The notes under the pieces are model-generated. The model searched no databases. It had not been told where the DNA came from and worked only from the letters and a program-made list of their open reading frames with translations. A stretch of 10,718 nt of DNA from Candidatus Altarchaeum sp. (GTDB taxonomy: Archaea > Altiarchaeota > Altiarchaeia > Altiarchaeales > Altiarchaeaceae), in NCBI GenBank assembly GCA_018260755.1, contig JAGTWP010000045.1:1-10718 (forward strand), written 5' to 3'. Shown piece by piece: positions 112 through 7,374 of this stretch. The translations under genes were made by a program, and so were the position numbers. Position 1 is the first letter of the stretch; each line of letters opens with the position of its first letter.

Positions 112-519
112 ATGGATGAATATGATTTAATGTTGGAAAGAGCAATTAAAAAACTCCCCCCCATGGCAACAAGACACCAGAGATTTGAAATTCCGAAAAT
201 ATCTTCGTTTATAGAGGGATCAAGAACAATAATAAAAAATTTAGGAGATATAGCAAACGCTTTGCATCGCCCGCAGGATGAAATTTTTACATTTTTACTT
301 AAAGAACTTGCGTCAAGAGGAGATATAGAAAAAGGAAGGGCAATAATTGAAAGACCTATGAAAGATGAGATGATAAACGACAAAATAAAAAAATACACGA
401 ATGAATTTGTATTGTGTAAGGAATGCGGAAAGCCGGACACGAAAATAGATATAATTGAAGGACATACTGCTTTGAGATGTATGGCGTGTGGTGCGTGGAG
501 ATTTGTCAGAAAGATATAA
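112..519 (+). CDS. eif2b: Translation initiation factor 2 subunit beta (aIF2-beta)
   Basis: This is the beta subunit of the heterotrimeric archaeal aIF2, which brings initiator Met-tRNA to the small ribosomal subunit with GTP. The 135 residues match the compact archaeal form, which lacks the long eukaryotic N-terminal extension. A short N-terminal helix (about 1-16) would contact the gamma subunit. The central alpha/beta domain includes KISSFIEGSRT (29-39) and RPQDEIFTFLLKEL (53-66). A C-terminal zinc ribbon has Cys102, Cys105, Cys123 and Cys126 in two CxxC pairs and ends in VRKI, as is usual in the family. The ATG at 112 is a natural family start. It has no Shine-Dalgarno and follows a very AT-rich stretch, so a leaderless transcript is likely. 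The gene is 69 bases ahead of PAN on the same strand. Its stop lies inside a 24-base tandem duplication. The gene symbol is the common database name. Confidence 0.95.
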   Translation: MDEYDLMLERAIKKLPPMATRHQRFEIPKISSFIEGSRTIIKNLGDIANALHRPQDEIFTFLLKELASRGDIEKGRAIIERPMKDEMINDKIKKYTNEFVLCKECGKPDTKIDIIEGHTALRCMACGAWRFVRKI

Positions 520-557
520 ATTAGATTTGTCAGAAAGATATAAATTAGATATAAATT
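499..557 (+). repeat. 24-bp tandem duplication spanning the aIF2-beta stop codon
   Basis: Copy 1 is 499-522 and copy 2 is 523-546, identical as read. A partial third copy (547-557, AGATATAAATT) matches the last 11 bases of the unit. Copy 1 encodes the last residues RFVRKI and the TAA stop. Because 24 is a multiple of three, copy 2 repeats this coding stretch and stop in the same frame just after the true stop. The duplication therefore leaves the protein unchanged. Confidence 0.85.
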
Positions 558-588
558 AAAATTTTGACTGAAAAATTTCATTTTTAAA

Positions 589-1773
589 ATGGAAAACAAT
601 TCTAATGTTAACCGAGGAATTAACCATGGAAATATATGCCTTTCCGGCAACGAAATTTCCCGGATTTTAGAGGAAAATATTATTTTACGGTTTGAAAATA
701 AGAAATTACAGGATGAAACAGGCATTCTGGCAGAGGAGATTAAAAAATTTAAAGATAATTCTCAAAAATATCCTTTTCCTGTTGCTAATGTCAAAGATGT
801 GCTTGAAGACGGAAGGGTTATTGTTACGATAAATTTCGGGAGCGAAATTGTTGTAACAAACAGATCTGACAAAAAAGTACAGATAACCGATAAAGTTGTG
901 CTGAGAAATGATTTCGGGACGATTACGGAAATTTTACCAAAGTCGCATCAAATTTCACTTATGAATATGGATGAAAAACCAGATATAACTTATGCAGATA
1001 TAGGTGGGTTGCAGGAACAAAAAAGAGCGATAAAAGAGGTTGTTGAACTGCCGCTGAAAAATCCGGAAATTTTCGGGAAAGTGGGAATAAGCCCTCCGAA
1101 AGGAGTTTTGCTTTATGGTCCTCCCGGAACAGGAAAGACCCTGCTTGCCAAAGCAGTAGCAAATGCTACCAATGCAAAATTTATAGAAGTTGTTGCTTCC
1201 GAATTAGCACAAAAATATCTCGGAGAAGGAAGTAAGTTAGTCAGGGAAATTTTCAGATACGCAAAAGAAAATGCTCCTGCCATAATATTTATTGACGAAA
1301 TTGACGGAATCGCACATTCGCGCTCGGGCGAGGTAGAGGGTGCGGACAGAGAGGTTCAGAGAACACTTACTCAATTACTTGCGGAAATGGACGGATTTAA
1401 ACCATTAGACAGAGTTAAGGTTATAGCAGCAACAAACAGGGTGGATATAGTTGATAACGCATTACTTCGTCCAGGGAGATTTGACCGGCTTATTGAAATT
1501 CCTCTCTGTGATTACGAAGGAAGAAAGGAAATTTTTGAAATATACCTGAATAAGATGAATATTCGGGATATAAATATTGATGAATTATCAAGGACGGAAA
1601 ATTTAAGTGGTGCACAAATAAAAGGAATATGCACGGAAGCGGGGCTGAACGCAATACGACAAAACAGAGACTATGTTGTTCGGGATGACTTTGCAAATGC
1701 AATTGAAAAGACAGAAAGCAGCAAAATGACAAATAAATTCGGTATTCCTGTTGTGCAGGAGTTGTATGTGTGA
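589..1773 (+). CDS. pan: Proteasome-activating nucleotidase (PAN), AAA+ ATPase
   Basis: PAN is the archaeal counterpart of the 26S proteasome Rpt ring. It unfolds substrates with ATP and feeds them into the 20S core. The 394 residues show the expected order: a coiled coil (about 22-60), an OB fold (about 62-125) and one AAA+ module (about 130-375). Visible motifs are Walker A GPPGTGKT (177-184), an aromatic pore loop KYLGEG (209-214), Walker B IIFIDEID (232-239) and the second region of homology from ATNR (281-284) to LRPGRFDR (293-300). The protein ends LYV (392-394), a complete HbYX motif of the kind that docks into the 20S alpha ring and opens its gate. This separates it from general CDC48/VAT-type ATPases. 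No proteasome core gene is in the window. The start ATG has no Shine-Dalgarno and follows an AAAAAT-TTC-ATTTTT inverted repeat (571-585). The last two codons and the stop lie in a tandem repeat. Confidence 0.93.
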   Translation: MENNSNVNRGINHGNICLSGNEISRILEENIILRFENKKLQDETGILAEEIKKFKDNSQKYPFPVANVKDVLEDGRVIVTINFGSEIVVTNRSDKKVQITDKVVLRNDFGTITEILPKSHQISLMNMDEKPDITYADIGGLQEQKRAIKEVVELPLKNPEIFGKVGISPPKGVLLYGPPGTGKTLLAKAVANATNAKFIEVVASELAQKYLGEGSKLVREIFRYAKENAPAIIFIDEIDGIAHSRSGEVEGADREVQRTLTQLLAEMDGFKPLDRVKVIAATNRVDIVDNALLRPGRFDRLIEIPLCDYEGRKEIFEIYLNKMNIRDINIDELSRTENLSGAQIKGICTEAGLNAIRQNRDYVVRDDFANAIEKTESSKMTNKFGIPVVQELYV

Positions 1774-1848
1774 AATATGTGTGAATGGTATGCGTGAAAT
1801 ATGTGTAAATGGTATGCGTGAAATATGTGTGAATGGTATGTGTGAAAT
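1765..1848 (+). repeat. 24-bp tandem repeat (3.5 copies) beginning at the HbYX tyrosine codon of PAN
   Basis: The units are 1765-1788, 1789-1812 and 1813-1836, with a half unit at 1837-1848. They differ only at a T/C and a G/A position. Each unit is itself made of two related 12-base halves, TATGTGTGAAAT and ATGTGTGAATGG. The first unit supplies Tyr393, Val394 and the TGA stop of PAN. Later copies repeat TATGYGTGA in the same frame. The array fills most of the 118-base gap before the HepT gene. The opposite-strand frame through the array reads a His/Thr/Tyr/Phe-rich peptide, which is a repeat artefact. Confidence 0.88.
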
Positions 1849-1891
1849 CTAATTCTGTAAATTTCAATAAATTTGAAAATTTAATTCAAAG

Positions 1892-2293
1892 ATGGACGAC
1901 GAAAGAAAAAACAGGTATAGAGATAAAATAAATTTTATAATAGAAAAGATTGAAAGCATACCTAAGACAAATTTTGATGACAATATTGTCAAAGATGCGG
2001 CATTTTATAAAATTCAAACTGCAATCGAATATGCTACCGATATTGCAGCAATGCTCGTCAGAGATTTAGGTAAAGATGTCGGAGACGATTATCATAATTT
2101 GGAAATACTGAAAGATGAGAATCTAATAGATAGAGAAATGTATGAGAAATTAAAAAAATTAAACGGGATGAGAAGTATAATTGTTCACAGATACAACAAG
2201 ATAGAGGAAGATCTCATATTTAACTACATTAATGAAATAAGAAAAATCATTTTTGATTTTATTGAAATTGTTGAAAATGTTATCCAAAGATAA
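1892..2293 (+). CDS. hepT: HepT-family ribonuclease toxin (HEPN, DUF86)
   Basis: This is a HEPN-superfamily toxin, an RNase that is normally neutralised by its partner MntA. The 133-residue protein is almost all helical, as expected. It carries the HEPN catalytic signature RX4HXY as RSIIVHRY, with Arg94, His99 and Tyr101. In characterised HepT/MntA pairs the tyrosine of this motif is the residue AMPylated by the antitoxin, so a complete motif here implies both an active toxin and a modifiable target. A second typical feature is YHNLEILKDENLID (67-80), followed by a helix leading to the catalytic motif. The start ATG at 1892 has no Shine-Dalgarno and lies just after an AT-rich inverted repeat (about 1859-1882). 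The 3' end overlaps the nucleotidyltransferase gene, so the two are co-transcribed. Family assignment is strong. Activity is inferred from the motif. Confidence 0.9.
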   Translation: MDDERKNRYRDKINFIIEKIESIPKTNFDDNIVKDAAFYKIQTAIEYATDIAAMLVRDLGKDVGDDYHNLEILKDENLIDREMYEKLKKLNGMRSIIVHRYNKIEEDLIFNYINEIRKIIFDFIEIVENVIQR

Positions 2294-2720
2294 GTCATTG
2301 GATGAAATAAAAAAGGATTTGAAAGAATTGGAATTGATGAAATTTGATGTCGCAGTATATGGCAGTTATGTTAAAGAAAAGAGTATAAGAGATATTGACA
2401 TTGCCGTAATAACAAAAATTAAAGACAAGGATGAAAATTTAAAAATATGGAAAGACCTTATCGGCAGGTTTCCTCCGCTCTATGACATAAAAATCTTTGA
2501 ACTTATGCCTTTGAATGTAAAAATTTCCATAATCAACAATTACAAAGTAATATTTGGGGATTCGCCTGACATTTCGGAATATTTTTATTTTGAGCGGAAA
2601 TTGTGGAACGACCAAAAATACAGGATAGAGGAAAACAGATTCAAAAGTTATAAAGAGAAAATTTGTGCAATGGAAAGATGGAAAAAATTGGGGGCTGAAA
2701 TGTTAAAGGTTAAAGATTAA
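2277..2720 (+). CDS. mntA: MntA-type minimal nucleotidyltransferase antitoxin
   Basis: This is the partner of HepT. MntA proteins are minimal nucleotidyltransferases that inactivate HepT by adding AMP to its tyrosine. The sequence shows the nucleotidyltransferase core: a Gly-Ser motif in VYGSYVKEKS, the metal-binding pair in RDIDIAV, and a likely third acidic residue in LYDIKIFEL. From the ATG at 2277 these are Gly29-Ser30, Asp39, Asp41 and Asp70 of 147 residues. The spacing is GSX8DXD, two residues shorter than the GSX10DXD usually quoted for the family. The reading frame also has an ATG at 2253, giving 155 residues and a 41-base overlap with hepT. I prefer 2277 (17-base overlap) because the extra residues encode a hydrophobic stretch that looks like hepT in another frame. 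A charged C-terminal region (about 100-147) follows the catalytic core. The stop lies in a 7-base tandem repeat. Confidence 0.85.
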   Translation: MLSKDKSLDEIKKDLKELELMKFDVAVYGSYVKEKSIRDIDIAVITKIKDKDENLKIWKDLIGRFPPLYDIKIFELMPLNVKISIINNYKVIFGDSPDISEYFYFERKLWNDQKYRIEENRFKSYKEKICAMERWKKLGAEMLKVKD

Positions 2721-2725
2721 AGATT
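2702..2725 (+). repeat. 7-bp tandem repeat spanning the mntA stop codon
   Basis: GTTAAAG (2702-2708), GTTAAAG (2709-2715) and ATTAAAG (2716-2722) follow one another, then a partial ATTAG. They cover the last codons of mntA (LKVKD) and its TAA stop at 2718-2720. The unit is not a multiple of three, so an added copy would change the C-terminal residues. Confidence 0.65.
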
Positions 2726-2822
2726 AGTAAAGGAGTGAATTTAAAATAGGTTAAATTTACATTTTAAAATTTAATTGTTTTCTAAATTAAGATAAGCAGA
2801 TAAGTCAAACAGGAAAATTTAA

Positions 2823-4226
2823 ATGGACAGAAAAATCATCGTGCTAAAATTCGGAGGATTTGCCGTTTCAACGGGAGAAAATATAAAGAGAATTTGTGCA
2901 ATAGTCAAAAAAGAAAGAGAAAAGCATAAAGTAGTTGTTACCGTATCGGCACTGTATGGAGTTACGGATAAACTTGTGGAAATTTCGGAAAAAATTTCAA
3001 ACCTTCCTGCAATAGCGGTTGAAGATGCGGCAAAAAATTTTTATGACGAAATACTCGCGCTGCACTGCAAAACAGCAAAAGAGTGTATCACAGATGAGAA
3101 AATTTTAAAAGAAGTTATCGAAAAAATAACTGCATTGCTTGAAAAATTAAGAATTACTTTGATTGGTGTCGGGTATCTGGAAGAAATTAATCCTAAATTT
3201 ATGGATTATGTCGTATCCTTCGGAGAAAAGATGTCTGTATATGTTATAAGCGGAGCATTGAAAGATGCAAACATAAAGGCAGTTCCATTGACGGGCTATG
3301 AGGCGGGAATTATTACTGATTCAAATTTTTCACACGCAAAACCGCTGCCAATAATTAACGAAACAATAAGGAAAAATTTAATGCCTCTGATAGAAGAAAA
3401 TAATGTTCCGGTCGTTGCGGGTTTTATTTCTGCGGATATAAAAGGAACTGCAACTACATTGGGAAGAGGTGGTTCTGATTATACTGCTGCATTACTCGCG
3501 AAACACCTGGATGCCGTTGAAGTTCAAATCATAAAAGATGTTGAAGGTGTATTGTCAGCAGACCCGAAAATTGTTCCGAATGCAAAACTCTTGAAGGAAT
3601 TGTCTTATGCGGAAGCAATGGATTTGGCATTATTCGGAGCAAAGGTTATGTACTCAAAGATGATAGAGCCGGCAATGGATGCAAAAATCCCAGTCAGGGT
3701 TAAAAGTATATTCAAACCGGATGATGAGGGAACTGTAATTGTCAAAAATGAAGAAATTATTGACAGAATAGTCAAGGCAGTTACGATGATGAAGGATATT
3801 ACAGTAGTAAATATTAAAGGTGTAGGAATGGCAGAAACACCTGGAATTATTGGAAAAATTTTTTCCGAACTGGGAAATAAAGGAATAAATATTGTAATGG
3901 TATCCGGCTCATCCGAATCAAATTTATCCATAGTTGTAAAAAAAAGTGATGTTGGAAGGACATTGGAGATAATAAATCAGGCCTCAAACTCAGGGGTGAG
4001 AAAGGTTGAAGTAATGGAAAATGTCAGGATTATTGCAGTAATTGGTGCTGGTATGGCAGGGAGCAGAGGTGTTGCGGCAAAGATATTTAAAATAGTTGCG
4101 GACAATGATGCGAGCATAATTATGATTGCACAGGGTTCATCGGAAGTTAATATATCCTTTGTCGTTGAAGAAAAATTTAGCGAAGATATAGTTAAGGCAA
4201 TACATAGAGAATTTGTGGAAAAGTGA
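2823..4226 (+). CDS. lysC: Aspartate kinase (aspartokinase) with two C-terminal ACT domains
   Basis: Aspartokinase phosphorylates L-aspartate to beta-aspartyl phosphate, the first step towards lysine, threonine and methionine. At 467 residues it is the monofunctional form with no homoserine dehydrogenase fusion. The amino-acid kinase domain (about 1-310) has KFGG (9-12), VSALYGVTD (41-49), SFGEKMS (132-138), the nucleotide loop TTLGRGGSDYTA (211-222) and KDVEGVLSADPK (238-249). Two ACT regulatory domains follow at about 318-385 and 400-465. Each contains the usual Ser-rich ligand loop: SGSSESNLS (361-369) and QGSSEVNIS (437-445). Feedback control by lysine or threonine is therefore likely. 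One oddity is KFGGFAV, where the family typically has KFGGTSV. The gene stands alone, with none of the later pathway genes beside it. A weak CAGGA lies about 13 bases before the ATG but is too poor to call a Shine-Dalgarno. Confidence 0.95.
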   Translation: MDRKIIVLKFGGFAVSTGENIKRICAIVKKEREKHKVVVTVSALYGVTDKLVEISEKISNLPAIAVEDAAKNFYDEILALHCKTAKECITDEKILKEVIEKITALLEKLRITLIGVGYLEEINPKFMDYVVSFGEKMSVYVISGALKDANIKAVPLTGYEAGIITDSNFSHAKPLPIINETIRKNLMPLIEENNVPVVAGFISADIKGTATTLGRGGSDYTAALLAKHLDAVEVQIIKDVEGVLSADPKIVPNAKLLKELSYAEAMDLALFGAKVMYSKMIEPAMDAKIPVRVKSIFKPDDEGTVIVKNEEIIDRIVKAVTMMKDITVVNIKGVGMAETPGIIGKIFSELGNKGINIVMVSGSSESNLSIVVKKSDVGRTLEIINQASNSGVRKVEVMENVRIIAVIGAGMAGSRGVAAKIFKIVADNDASIIMIAQGSSEVNISFVVEEKFSEDIVKAIHREFVEK

Positions 4227-4335
4227 AAAAAAGTAGGCAAATTTTATCCTTACTTCAGAAAAATCAGAGACATTATGGAAATTTGTGCGGAATTATCAAG
4301 ATTTGTGTGCTCCATAAAAGAAAAAAGTAGGGGAT

Positions 4336-4425
4336 AAATGCCAAATTAATGGCAAGTTAAATGCCAAATTAAGTGGCAAGAAATTGCAAATTAAGTGGCA
4401 AGAAATGCCAAATTAATGGCAAGTT
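4336..4425 (+). repeat. Four tandem 22-23-bp repeats, most of which can form a hairpin
   Basis: The units lie at 4336-4358, 4359-4380, 4381-4402 and 4403-4425. Their shared core is TGCCAAATTAA(G)TGGCA. TGCCA and TGGCA are inverted complements around an AATTAA loop, so units 1, 2 and 4 can each form a 5-bp hairpin. Unit 3 has TTGCA in place of TGCCA, which weakens its left arm. The first and fourth units are identical, and units 2 and 3 carry an extra G before TGGCA. The array starts 110 bases after the lysC stop, so it is not a stop-spanning repeat like the others. Confidence 0.8.
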
Positions 4426-4519
4426 AAATGAAATTTTTATCAAATATTAAATATTCCTTTTGACACATTTAATAAACAAATTAAAAAACAGAGCAAAATC
4501 AACAATTGTAAAAAATAAG

Positions 4520-4561
4520 TTCGCTTCGCCCTCATTTAAAAATGTTTCAAGCATTTTTAAA
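4520..4561 (+). repeat. Dispersed hairpin element, divergent copy
   Basis: The head GTTCGCTTCGCCCTC (4520-4533 region) resembles the CTCACTTCGTTCG head of the copies near 7341, 9923 and 9985. It is followed by a perfect 10-bp inverted repeat, TTTAAAAATG (4535-4544) with CATTTTTAAA (4552-4561), around a 7-base loop. Membership in the same family is inferred from the shared layout of a GC-containing head followed by an AT hairpin. The head sequence is only partly conserved. Confidence 0.5.
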
Positions 4562-4587
4562 GATTAAAATCACATAAATTTTAGTAT

Positions 4588-4611
4588 ATTTTTTAAACAA
4601 ATTTAAAAAAT
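4588..4611. repeat. Perfect inverted repeat just upstream of the IPP isomerase start
   Basis: ATTTTTTAAA (4588-4597) and TTTAAAAAAT (4602-4611) are exact inverted complements around a CAAA loop. The element ends 10 bases before the ATG at 4622. It lies just downstream of a TATA-like stretch (4581-4592). It could be a regulator-binding site near the transcription start, or a headless relative of the dispersed hairpins. In such AT-rich DNA a chance palindrome is also possible. Confidence 0.5.
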
Positions 4612-4621
4612 CACCAAAGAA

Positions 4622-5665
4622 ATGGAAAACAACAATTCAAGAAAAAAGGAACACATAAGACATGCTTTACATGACAAAGTAGAGTATGGAAGTGCTGGAT
4701 TTGAGAAAATTTTGTTAAAGCACAAATCACTTCCTGAAATTGATTTTGATGAAATAGATTTAAATGTAAATTTTCTTGGAAAACAACTAAAATTTCCTAT
4801 AATAATTGAAGCAATTACAGGGGGCTTTGACGAAGGTGGAAAAATCAATGAAATTTTATCAGAAATTGCCTCTGAATTTGGAATCGGATTTATGGTTGGA
4901 AGTCAAAGACCTATGATAGAAAATCCTGCCTTGTCAGAGACCTATAAAATTTCCGGGCATCCGCCGGTTATCATAAGTAATATCGGTGCGGTTCAGCTAA
5001 ATTATGGAATAACTTATGAAAATATTGCAAACATAGTTCGATACATTAAGGCGGATGCCATTGCTTTTCACCTGAATCCTTTGCAGGAATGTTTTCAGCC
5101 CGCAGGAAACAGAAATTTTAAAAATTTAAAGAAAAAAATAAATGAAATTTCATCAAAGCTAAGAATCGCTGGGATAAAGGTTATTGTAAAAGAGGTGGGA
5201 ACGGGCTTAAATTATGATGATGTGAAGGATTTGGATGCGGATTGTCTTGATGTTGCTGGTTTTGGTGGAACAAACTGGGCGATAATTGAAGGAAAAAGGG
5301 CAGACAAACAGGCACAAAATTTTTACAATTGGGGAATCCCTACTGTTGAGTCCATCCGAAACATCATATCTTTAAAGGATAAAAGAAATTTGGAAATTAT
5401 TGCAAGTGGTGGGATAAGAAATGGTATTGATGCGGCAAAGTGTTTTGCATTGGGTGCAGATGTCGTTGGAATGGCTCTGCCATTTTTAAAGGAAATTTAT
5501 AAAGATGATAAAGGAGAAATTTCGGAAAATATAAACAAAGAAAGGGCAAAACAAAATTTACAAAAATTTTTAAATAAATTTATTGAAGAGTTGAAACCCG
5601 CATTATTTCTGACCGGAAGTAAGAATATTAAGGAAATAAATGAAAAATATTCTATGAATGACTAA
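4622..5665 (+). CDS. fni: Isopentenyl-diphosphate delta-isomerase, type 2 (FMN-dependent)
   Basis: This enzyme interconverts isopentenyl and dimethylallyl diphosphate, supplying the primer for archaeal isoprenoid ether lipids. Type 2 enzymes are cytosolic TIM-barrel flavoproteins that use reduced FMN. The 347 residues match family length. The motifs run in order: RKKEHIRHAL (7-16), a substrate-binding start; EAITGG (63-68); GSQR (93-96); SNIGAVQL (119-126); HLNPLQE (150-156), whose Gln155 corresponds to the conserved catalytic glutamine; KEVGTGL (190-196); VAGFGGTNW (211-219); ASGGIRNG (261-268), an FMN phosphate loop; and GADVVGMA (278-285). All the landmarks I know are present, so it should be active. 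The gene stands alone, with no mevalonate-pathway gene adjacent. No Shine-Dalgarno precedes the ATG. The last codons and stop form the first copy of a 35-bp tandem array. Confidence 0.94.
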   Translation: MENNNSRKKEHIRHALHDKVEYGSAGFEKILLKHKSLPEIDFDEIDLNVNFLGKQLKFPIIIEAITGGFDEGGKINEILSEIASEFGIGFMVGSQRPMIENPALSETYKISGHPPVIISNIGAVQLNYGITYENIANIVRYIKADAIAFHLNPLQECFQPAGNRNFKNLKKKINEISSKLRIAGIKVIVKEVGTGLNYDDVKDLDADCLDVAGFGGTNWAIIEGKRADKQAQNFYNWGIPTVESIRNIISLKDKRNLEIIASGGIRNGIDAAKCFALGADVVGMALPFLKEIYKDDKGEISENINKERAKQNLQKFLNKFIEELKPALFLTGSKNIKEINEKYSMND

Positions 5666-5750
5666 ATGAAATAAATGAAAAATATTCTATGAATGACTAA
5701 ATGAAATAAATGAAAAATATTCTATGAATGACTAAATGAAATAAATGAAA
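5633..5750 (+). repeat. 35-bp tandem array (3.4 copies) starting inside the IPP isomerase 3' end
   Basis: Identical units lie at 5633-5667, 5668-5702 and 5703-5737, followed by 13 bases of a fourth (5738-5750). The first unit encodes the last residues EINEKYSMND and the TAA stop. The unit length is not a multiple of three, so the later copies are frame-shifted relative to each other. The three full copies are exact as read, which suggests recent duplication or ongoing slippage. The array fills most of the spacer between two converging genes. Confidence 0.92.
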
Positions 5751-5752
5751 TG

Positions 5753-5773
5753 CGCAAAATTCTTCTGTTTGCG
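5753..5773. terminator. Possible hairpin terminator between converging genes
   Basis: CGCAAA (5753-5758) pairs with TTTGCG (5768-5773) across a 9-base loop. A smaller GCGT/ACGC pair at 5771-5774 and 5782-5785 overlaps its right arm. It sits just after the 35-bp array, between the isomerase gene on the plus strand and the small coiled-coil gene on the minus strand. It is one of the few GC-containing hairpins in the spacers. Archaeal terminators are mostly T-rich tracts rather than hairpins, so the function is a guess. Confidence 0.3.
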
Positions 5774-5785
5774 TAAATTTCACGC

Positions 5786-6019
5786 TTATATGTATCCTTT
5801 TATATTCTTATGCGAAGGGAGTATTCCTGTAATGTTATTACCTTCGGGTTCCGGTGTTGAAGTATCATCACCTTCGTAATCATCTTCATCTTCAACATCT
5901 TCGGAAATGGAAATCATCGCGTTTTCTATATTATTTAATTTTTCTTCCATGTTTTTTAGTCGTTTATCTATTCCGTCAAGTTTATTTATGACCTTCTTTT
6001 GAAATTCTTCTTCTTTCAT
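5786..6019 (-). CDS. Small acidic coiled-coil protein of unknown function
   Basis: I do not recognise a family. The 77 residues begin with a charged helix rich in heptad-spaced Leu/Ile/Met (about 4-40: VINKLDGIDKRLKNMEEKL and so on), which should form a short coiled coil, probably dimeric or trimeric. A very acidic stretch, EDVEDEDDYEGDD (40-52), follows, then a Pro/Gly-containing tail ending KNIKGYI. There is no membrane segment or signal peptide. The gene lies 92 bases downstream of the arginine decarboxylase gene on the same strand and may share its transcript. The clear heptad pattern, the ATG start and the lack of any competing frame support a real gene, but it could be lineage-specific. 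Confidence 0.6.
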   Translation of the reverse strand: MKEEEFQKKVINKLDGIDKRLKNMEEKLNNIENAMISISEDVEDEDDYEGDDTSTPEPEGNNITGILPSHKNIKGYI

Positions 6020-6111
6020 TTTTTAGATTTTATTTGTTTAAGTTACAAAAAATTTTAAGTTAAAAAATTTAATAAAATTTGGTATTTCTGATATAAATTT
6101 TACCTGACAAA

Positions 6112-6654
6112 TTACGGAACAAATACCGCCGCAGCAAGGACAGTTGTCCATAATCCATTCTTGTCTACCTTTGTCGATTGTGTAATGTTTGTTGTCTTTA
6201 CAATTTTTCCGCTCATTTTCCATATTTCCTTCTTCTCGTCGTAATTTTTATTTACATCAAACTCAATTCCCAACGTTGAAGCAAGCATTGATGCGGCAAG
6301 ATCTTCTGCATAATCTCCTGCGGATTCATCGGTTTGTCCGAAAGAATGATGCTCGCTTAAATAACCATAAGTTGTGCGTTCGGTTGGAACCGCGCATCCG
6401 ACAGAAGTAGCAATCATTCTGTTCGGTTCGTTGGAAGAATTTCTGGACATTACTACAAAAACAATTTGTCCGGGCATTAACTCCTTTAAACCATCTTCCT
6501 TTGGAACAATTTTGCACTTTGGTGGCAATATACTTGACACAAGAACTAAATTAAATTTTTCTATGCCTGCATCCCGTAATGCCGCTTCAAAAGATGCGAG
6601 CTGTTCTTTATGCTTTCCGACACCTTTGGTAAAAAATACTTTTTTAGGTACCAA
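6112..6654 (-). CDS. pdaD: Pyruvoyl-dependent arginine decarboxylase
   Basis: The enzyme decarboxylates L-arginine to agmatine, the first step of polyamine synthesis in many archaea. It is made as a proenzyme that cleaves itself between two serines, converting the second into the pyruvoyl cofactor at the start of the alpha chain. The site is visible as LVSSILPP, with cleavage expected between Ser40 and Ser41. This would give a beta chain of about 40 residues and an alpha chain of about 140. Other family stretches are [11 protein letters not shown] (61-71), [13 protein letters not shown] (96-108), which likely carries the catalytic Glu, [12 protein letters not shown] (112-123), and a C-terminal [13 protein letters not shown] (166-178). 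The start is TTG at 6654: an in-frame TAA lies a few codons upstream, and the N-terminus [12 protein letters not shown] is as I remember it in homologues. No agmatinase gene is adjacent. Confidence 0.93.
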
Positions 6655-6685
6655 TTTAAAAATTTAAATTTTTTCCGATTTTTGA

Positions 6686-6703
6686 CTTAATATACTTAAT
6701 ATA
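6686..6703 (-). repeat. 9-bp tandem duplication spanning the lipoprotein stop codon
   Basis: CTTAATATA occurs at 6686-6694 and again at 6695-6703. On the coding (minus) strand the repeat covers the final Tyr codon and TAA stop of the lipoprotein gene, and repeats Tyr-stop in the same frame. It is short and AT-rich, so chance is possible. It does match the stop-spanning pattern seen at four other genes. Confidence 0.5.
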
Positions 6704-7205
6704 AATTTACATTTACCGAAGTTGTGTTTGAGACCAAAGTTGTGTTTGAGATTGTGAAATTTATTGATTCATCTTTGTATTTTACTTCTACATATAAGGG
6801 ATAATTGCCTGCATAATATGCTCCTCCGCAGCCGTGTGTACAAGCAGGTGCAGTTACACTATAATTTATTGTTGTTATGCCTTCTGTCAGGTTCAAAATT
6901 TTTGTATCATCAATTCGATGGCTACCTTGTCTTGATGTAATCCCATACACATGAACGGAAACATTATCCGCTTTCATATTTGACTTAACACTTACATTGA
7001 AATTTATCAATTCATTCGCTGTGTAACTCGGCTTTTCCAAAGAAATGTTTTCAACAGTTAAATTTAAATTTTTCATATCTCCTGTATTGTTCCCTATTTG
7101 TTCAACGCACCCGCTCAATAAAATCATTGCTATAATTGCCGCACTGATGCTTATACCTATACCTACAGATATTGTCCTTTTTTTCATTTTGCTTGTTTTG
7201 GACAT
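6696..7205 (-). CDS. Secreted lipoprotein, sequon-rich, unknown function
   Basis: The first 33 residues form a lipoprotein signal: a basic start (KMKKR, 6-10), a hydrophobic segment (12-30) and the lipobox LSGC with Cys33. The mature protein should be lipid-anchored on the outer face of the cell membrane. The rest is predicted beta-rich and looks like one Ig-like or CARDB-like domain: ISLEKPSYTANELINFNVSVKSN, then repeated strands, then YPLYVEVKYKD. It contains ten N-X-S/T sequons in about 136 residues, so heavy N-glycosylation is likely. A CTHGCGG segment (Cys-x3-Cys) could form a disulfide or bind metal. Near the C-terminus SNTTLV is followed by SNTTSV, an 18-bp in-frame duplication. An internal Met7 is an equally good start. 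It reads towards pdaD, 41 bases away, on the same strand. No specific function is recognisable. Confidence 0.75.
   Translation of the reverse strand: MSKTSKMKKRTISVGIGISISAAIIAMILLSGCVEQIGNNTGDMKNLNLTVENISLEKPSYTANELINFNVSVKSNMKADNVSVHVYGITSRQGSHRIDDTKILNLTEGITTINYSVTAPACTHGCGGAYYAGNYPLYVEVKYKDESINFTISNTTLVSNTTSVNVNLY
6715..6750 (-). repeat. 18-bp in-frame tandem duplication inside the lipoprotein gene
   Basis: ACC(G/A)AAGTTGTGTTTGAG occurs at 6715-6732 and 6733-6750 with one difference. It gives the protein a duplicated hexapeptide (SNTTLV then SNTTSV), each copy with an N-glycosylation sequon. It lies about 20 bases before the stop. Confidence 0.85.
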
Positions 7206-7340
7206 TATTTATTTGTGTATTTATTTTTTTTATTTGTTTTTTTATTTGTTTATCTAAAATTTTGTTTTTAAATTAAGAGTTCTAAACTTAAACTTTAATA
7301 ATTTAAATTTATAACAATAAACTTTAATAAAAGGTTACTT

Positions 7341-7374
7341 CACTTCGTTCGGAGATTTTCAAACAAGTTTAAAA
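7341..7374 (+). repeat. Dispersed hairpin element abutting a start codon
   Basis: The head CACTTCGTTCG (7341-7351) is followed by a hairpin of ATTTTCAAAC (7355-7364), AA, and GTTTAAAAAT (7367-7376), with one mismatch in ten pairs. The right arm runs into the ATG at 7375. The element therefore supplies the start region of the DUF447-like gene, or the gene start has been placed next to an inserted copy. The head and hairpin closely match the copy at 9985-10020. Confidence 0.65.

Follow-up and report, generated by a model that had tools for sequence, protein, structure and literature searches.

The short tandem arrays at gene ends in Candidatus Altarchaeum are very probably best explained by duplication acting across the whole genome, followed by a survival filter set by the reading frame, and the stop codons that some of them cover are neutral ground for tandem duplication and not a hot spot for it. 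The window, as the whole stretch of 10,718 nucleotides analysed is called here, is contig 1 of a draft Candidatus Altarchaeum MAG (G000; 1.32 Mb in 78 contigs). All five of the stop-codon arrays that an initial annotation of the window had described were recovered twice, by Tandem Repeats Finder and independently by a self-match scan, at positions within a few bases of those first given (Table 1). Three of these are strong and far above chance, as no array scoring at least 14 arose in one dinucleotide-shuffle set of 497 kb. Those of mntA and the lipoprotein gene are weak (scores 13 and 10), and for these two chance is small although not nil, since arrays scoring at least 10 number 505 observed against 27 in shuffles. 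Gene calling gives 12 complete genes in the window where eleven had been claimed. The single description offered for all five arrays does not extend to mntA, whose stop codon lies in the third unit and not in the first copy and whose protein tail is altered (EMLKVKD* in the window, ERFK* in the relative HURL_140). Units are nested, with 11-bp repeats inside the aIF2-beta and PAN arrays, and two further arrays of like kind lie away from stops, one intergenic and one on the start side of a gene.

Table 1. Tandem arrays of the window and the genes mapped with them (positions are those of the window)
Feature	Position	Strand	Remarks
aIF2-beta gene	112..519	+	orthologues found
aIF2-beta-stop array	499-550	+	24-bp tandem duplication x2.2; stop 517-519; strong
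aIF2-beta array, nested 11-bp repeat included	499..558	+	self-match scan and Tandem Repeats Finder
Proteasome-activating nucleotidase (PAN) gene	589..1773	+	orthologues found
PAN-stop array	1764-1848	+	24 bp x3.5, sub-repeats 11-13 bp; stop 1771-1773; strong
mntA-stop array	2702-2726	+	7 bp x3.4-3.6; stop 2718-2720 in third unit; weak
Intergenic array	4336..4427	.	imperfect 22-bp array, ~110 bp 3' of aspartokinase stop
Type 2 isopentenyl-diphosphate isomerase (fni) gene	4622..5665	+	
fni-stop array	5633-5750	+	perfect 35 bp x3.4; stop 5663-5665; strong
Lipoprotein-gene-stop duplication	6685-6703	-	9 bp x2.1; stop 6696-6698; weak
Divergent-gap array	7205..7253	.	12/21-bp array upstream of lipoprotein gene

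The genome at large was sampled as 60 stretches amounting to 799 kb of G000, with array periods of 5-150 and with genes called by a home-made hexamer model, so that start positions are approximate. This sample holds 312 tandem arrays scoring at least 13 (39 per 100 kb, where dinucleotide shuffles give about 4 arrays), 162 of them scoring at least 20, and periods are mostly 8-50 bp. Arrays are 14-fold rarer within genes than between them, the rate in coding sequence being 0.07 of the intergenic rate, and in 57 of the 65 coding arrays scoring at least 13 the period is divisible by three. The suggestions that unrelated units reflect a shared process, and that duplications arise widely but persist wherever the reading frame is spared, are upheld by this depletion and frame bias, by stop-spanning arrays occurring at the intergenic rate and by congener alleles that are single copy with unchanged aIF2-beta and PAN protein ends, as detailed below. 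The array rate climbs 1.9-fold with each 0.1 increase in AT content, and the array units of G000 are 41% A and 41% T, strand disregarded. Literature searches on tandem repeats in Altarchaeum found no paper.

Whether stops look preferred depends on the baseline. For the expected counts, units were scattered randomly over a genome in which every array had been reduced to one unit, and an array was counted where a stop fell in the first copy. Against uniform whole-genome placement stop-spanning arrays are some four times commoner than expected (23 versus 5.6), so that stops look enriched on that measure; the enrichment is gone once noncoding DNA is the baseline, the intergenic rate predicting 20.6 (ratio 1.11, CI 0.69-1.72; G000 sample). 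By the refuting condition that the initial annotation had set, a lack of enrichment at stops, any particular tie to stop codons does not hold on that baseline. With the window contig excluded the count is 20 against 20.4 expected (ratio 0.98, CI 0.59-1.55), and a sample of about 400 kb from three congeners gives a stop ratio of 1.92 (CI 0.67-4.58). Stop codons are therefore permissive and not preferred, and the impression of repeated placement at stops does not carry over to the genome. The window, where 4 of 12 stops have an array scoring at least 13 compared with about 3-4% of genes elsewhere, is an upward fluctuation such as any reader would pick out. Short arrays, those scoring 10-12, also seemed to be in surplus at stops, but this was set aside, since for them the AT-rich background is a concern and chance is not negligible. 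Arrays across starts occur at 0.57 of the intergenic rate in the G000 sample, while starts in the three congeners show no depletion (ratio 2.97), and so the start deficit of G000 is not general.

The history of individual arrays can be followed in the closest relatives, which are Ca. Altarchaeum HURL_140 (G003, with a syntenic contig), Ca. Altiarchaeales archaeon A3 (G001) and Ca. Altarchaeum CG2_30_32_3053 (G002). In all three the 3' end of aIF2-beta is single copy, that of PAN is the single-copy GTATGTGTGAAAT and that of fni has no array; the 9-bp unit of the lipoprotein gene is single copy in HURL_140. The aIF2-beta and PAN proteins end at the same residues in all four genomes (aIF2-beta in FVRKI or FVKKI, PAN in QELYV), and aIF2-beta, PAN and fni of the window share 84-93% protein identity with HURL_140. 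On these comparisons the simplest reading is that the aIF2-beta, PAN and fni arrays would have arisen in the lineage of the window after its split from HURL_140. CG2_30_32_3053 has an independent 42-bp x3 array within the aIF2-beta/PAN gap and across the PAN start. That arrays make growing spacers is borne out for this gap, which measures 69 bp in the window and 5 bp in HURL_140. Between aspartokinase and fni (window 4227-4621, compared with L074 9678-10492) HURL_140 has an extra 128-aa gene that is missing from the window.

The initial annotation had offered, as another explanation, repair or slippage linked to the ends of transcripts. In such a process terminators, R-loops or head-on collisions would make stop codons hot spots. 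The fourfold excess over uniform placement and the four or five cases in the window speak for such a process, which is nevertheless contradicted and very improbable, because there is no surplus above the intergenic rate and the orientation of the gaps runs the opposite way. Among gaps with AT content of at least 0.70 and of at most 600 bp in the four genomes, divergent ones carry 3.78 arrays per kb, codirectional ones 1.51 and convergent ones 0.65, some convergent gaps including RNA genes or genes that escaped the caller (mean AT before filtering 0.62); in the three congeners 8.6 kb of convergent gaps contain no array. The promoter side is thus the richest and the meeting point of transcript ends the poorest. 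This effect of orientation persists (p=4e-5) when AT content and genome are corrected for, and divergent gaps are still 1.9 times denser after AT correction. AT content thus fails to explain the divergent surplus, and so mutation rate or selection differs among gap types. Stop-spanning arrays are likewise rarer at convergent gene ends (1.5%) than at codirectional ones (4.5%; Fisher p=0.03), and within codirectional gaps array positions are uniform from stop to start (KS p=0.57).

Retention by selection of functional 3'-end elements, be they spacers, terminators or regulatory RNA, is also very unlikely. The differing aIF2-beta/PAN spacer is in keeping with it, as are the regulatory RNA roles proposed by the Borg authors for intergenic arrays (PMC9879509), but the orthologous ends in three congeners do without arrays, the array sequences are unrelated to one another and the rate at stops is that of intergenic DNA. 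It is extremely unlikely that faulty assembly of a draft MAG produced the arrays. An array does lie within 40 nt of 17 of the 29 scaffold gaps, where 9% would be expected, which indicates that arrays disturb assembly, yet depletion in coding sequence and the in-frame bias within genes cannot stem from assembly error, the raised density recurs in all four genomes of the genus, which come from separate projects, and assemblers usually collapse arrays (PMC9879509), so that the counts would be too low. Some scaffold gaps of G000 fall inside a single array (L134 132-357; L141 14778-15002). With gaps within or near arrays, true copy numbers are probably higher.

Duplication genome-wide with a reading-frame filter would start from high-rate short tandem duplication across the whole AT-rich Altarchaeum chromosome, for which the molecular step is most likely slippage of replication from one short direct repeat to another. 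The arrays would then expand stepwise. Selection would purge nearly all frame-breaking duplications. Where a unit contains the stop, the original stop would be kept in the first copy and the protein left unchanged, and for that reason a stop would be as permissive as ordinary intergenic DNA. Among two-copy arrays whose period is at least 15, 46% are flanked by a partial copy of at least 5 bp, compared with 9% for random clean duplications; such partial copies fit slippage between short direct repeats, but could instead be products of later growth and not seeds.

None of the repair genes checked (Ku, FEN1, NucS) accounts for the array rate. Yeast rad27 mutants are known to produce such duplications, and loss of FEN1 is rejected as the cause here because all four Altarchaeum genomes have FEN1. 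The NucS/EndoMS family (PF01939), which is present in many relatives from the class of Altarchaeum, gave no match over the cut-off in G000-G003; its loss does not serve as a cause either, as G012 also is without a PF01939 match and yet has few arrays. Ku-dependent end joining is rejected as well, as Ku was found in none of the nine genomes searched. PolB matches in G002:C72, G003:C136, G012:C1 and G033:C1 were seen to be split inside one open frame of ~1200 aa, which suggests a candidate intein in congeners, absent from the G000 gene (694-aa open frame).

Other repeated elements were noticed alongside the arrays. A dispersed and mostly intergenic element around CACTTCGTTCG occurs at 7341, 9923 and 9985 of the window, followed by TTTTCAAACAAGTTT at two of these three sites, and at 49 sites in the 799 kb of G000; it is frequent in each of the four Altarchaeum genomes, and five other archaea sampled lack it. 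Units of 47-53 bp that resemble hairpins are both tandem and dispersed (L148 16719-17001; L069 15630-15739; L046 18659-18786; L071 12774-12872), with cores at 34 and 14 intergenic sites, and among the genomes sampled are confined to the Altarchaeum genus.

The kind of array described here is already known, from Borgs. By the criterion used for these (at least 50 nt and at least three perfect units; PMC9879509), G000 has 50 arrays in 794 kb, or 6.3 per 100 kb and 0.50% of bases, similar to the average over ten Borgs of 46 arrays per 829 kb (5.5 per 100 kb, 0.62% of bases; PMC9879509). The congeners have 5.5 (G002), 1.6 (G003) and 1.8 (G001) such arrays per 100 kb, 13 mixed loci of ~200 kb together have two, and five other archaea sampled at 80 kb each have none, AT-matched archaeal comparators being few. 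AT-richness alone is not the cause, as a Methanocaldococcus jannaschii plasmid (28% GC) has 3 arrays scoring at least 13 and none by the Borg criterion in 50 kb. The likeness to Borgs extends to units that are mutually unrelated, to assemblies broken by arrays, to flanking partial repeats, to in-gene arrays divisible by three (13 of 13 here) and to arrays that may begin within a gene end, as the Borg authors had already seen (PMC9879509, Schoelmerich et al. 2023). Borg hosts carry 1-4 arrays per genome, their chromosomes being nearly array-free (PMC9879509). There are differences too, in that a Borg is a linear extrachromosomal element whereas the arrays here sit on a cellular chromosome, one that encodes aIF2-beta, PAN and fni on a contig of core archaeal genes syntenic with HURL_140, and a smaller proportion of them lies within genes (13 of 50, compared with ~44% in Borgs). 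Bacterial VNTRs, or minisatellites, are also short head-to-tail units with an in-frame bias in genes, for which slippage is the usual explanation. The G000 arrays share both features, and differ in that their density is high across the entire genome.

A Borg-like repeat load is thus not confined to Borgs but is matched by a cellular archaeal chromosome, and this is the more interesting fact than any link to stop codons. Array density among the four Altarchaeum congeners spans a nearly threefold range (14, 14, 36 and 39 per 100 kb), and so the cause is open to comparative tests. It is possible, although we hold this tentatively and think it rather less probable than its converse, that the chromosomes of Ca. 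Altarchaeum bear a burst of tandem duplication like that of Borgs, favouring divergent, promoter-side gaps over convergent ones, which would imply that replication or repair has a defect or an activity specific to this lineage. If so, that defect or activity would continuously rewrite the intergenic spacing and the start-site regions of these genomes.
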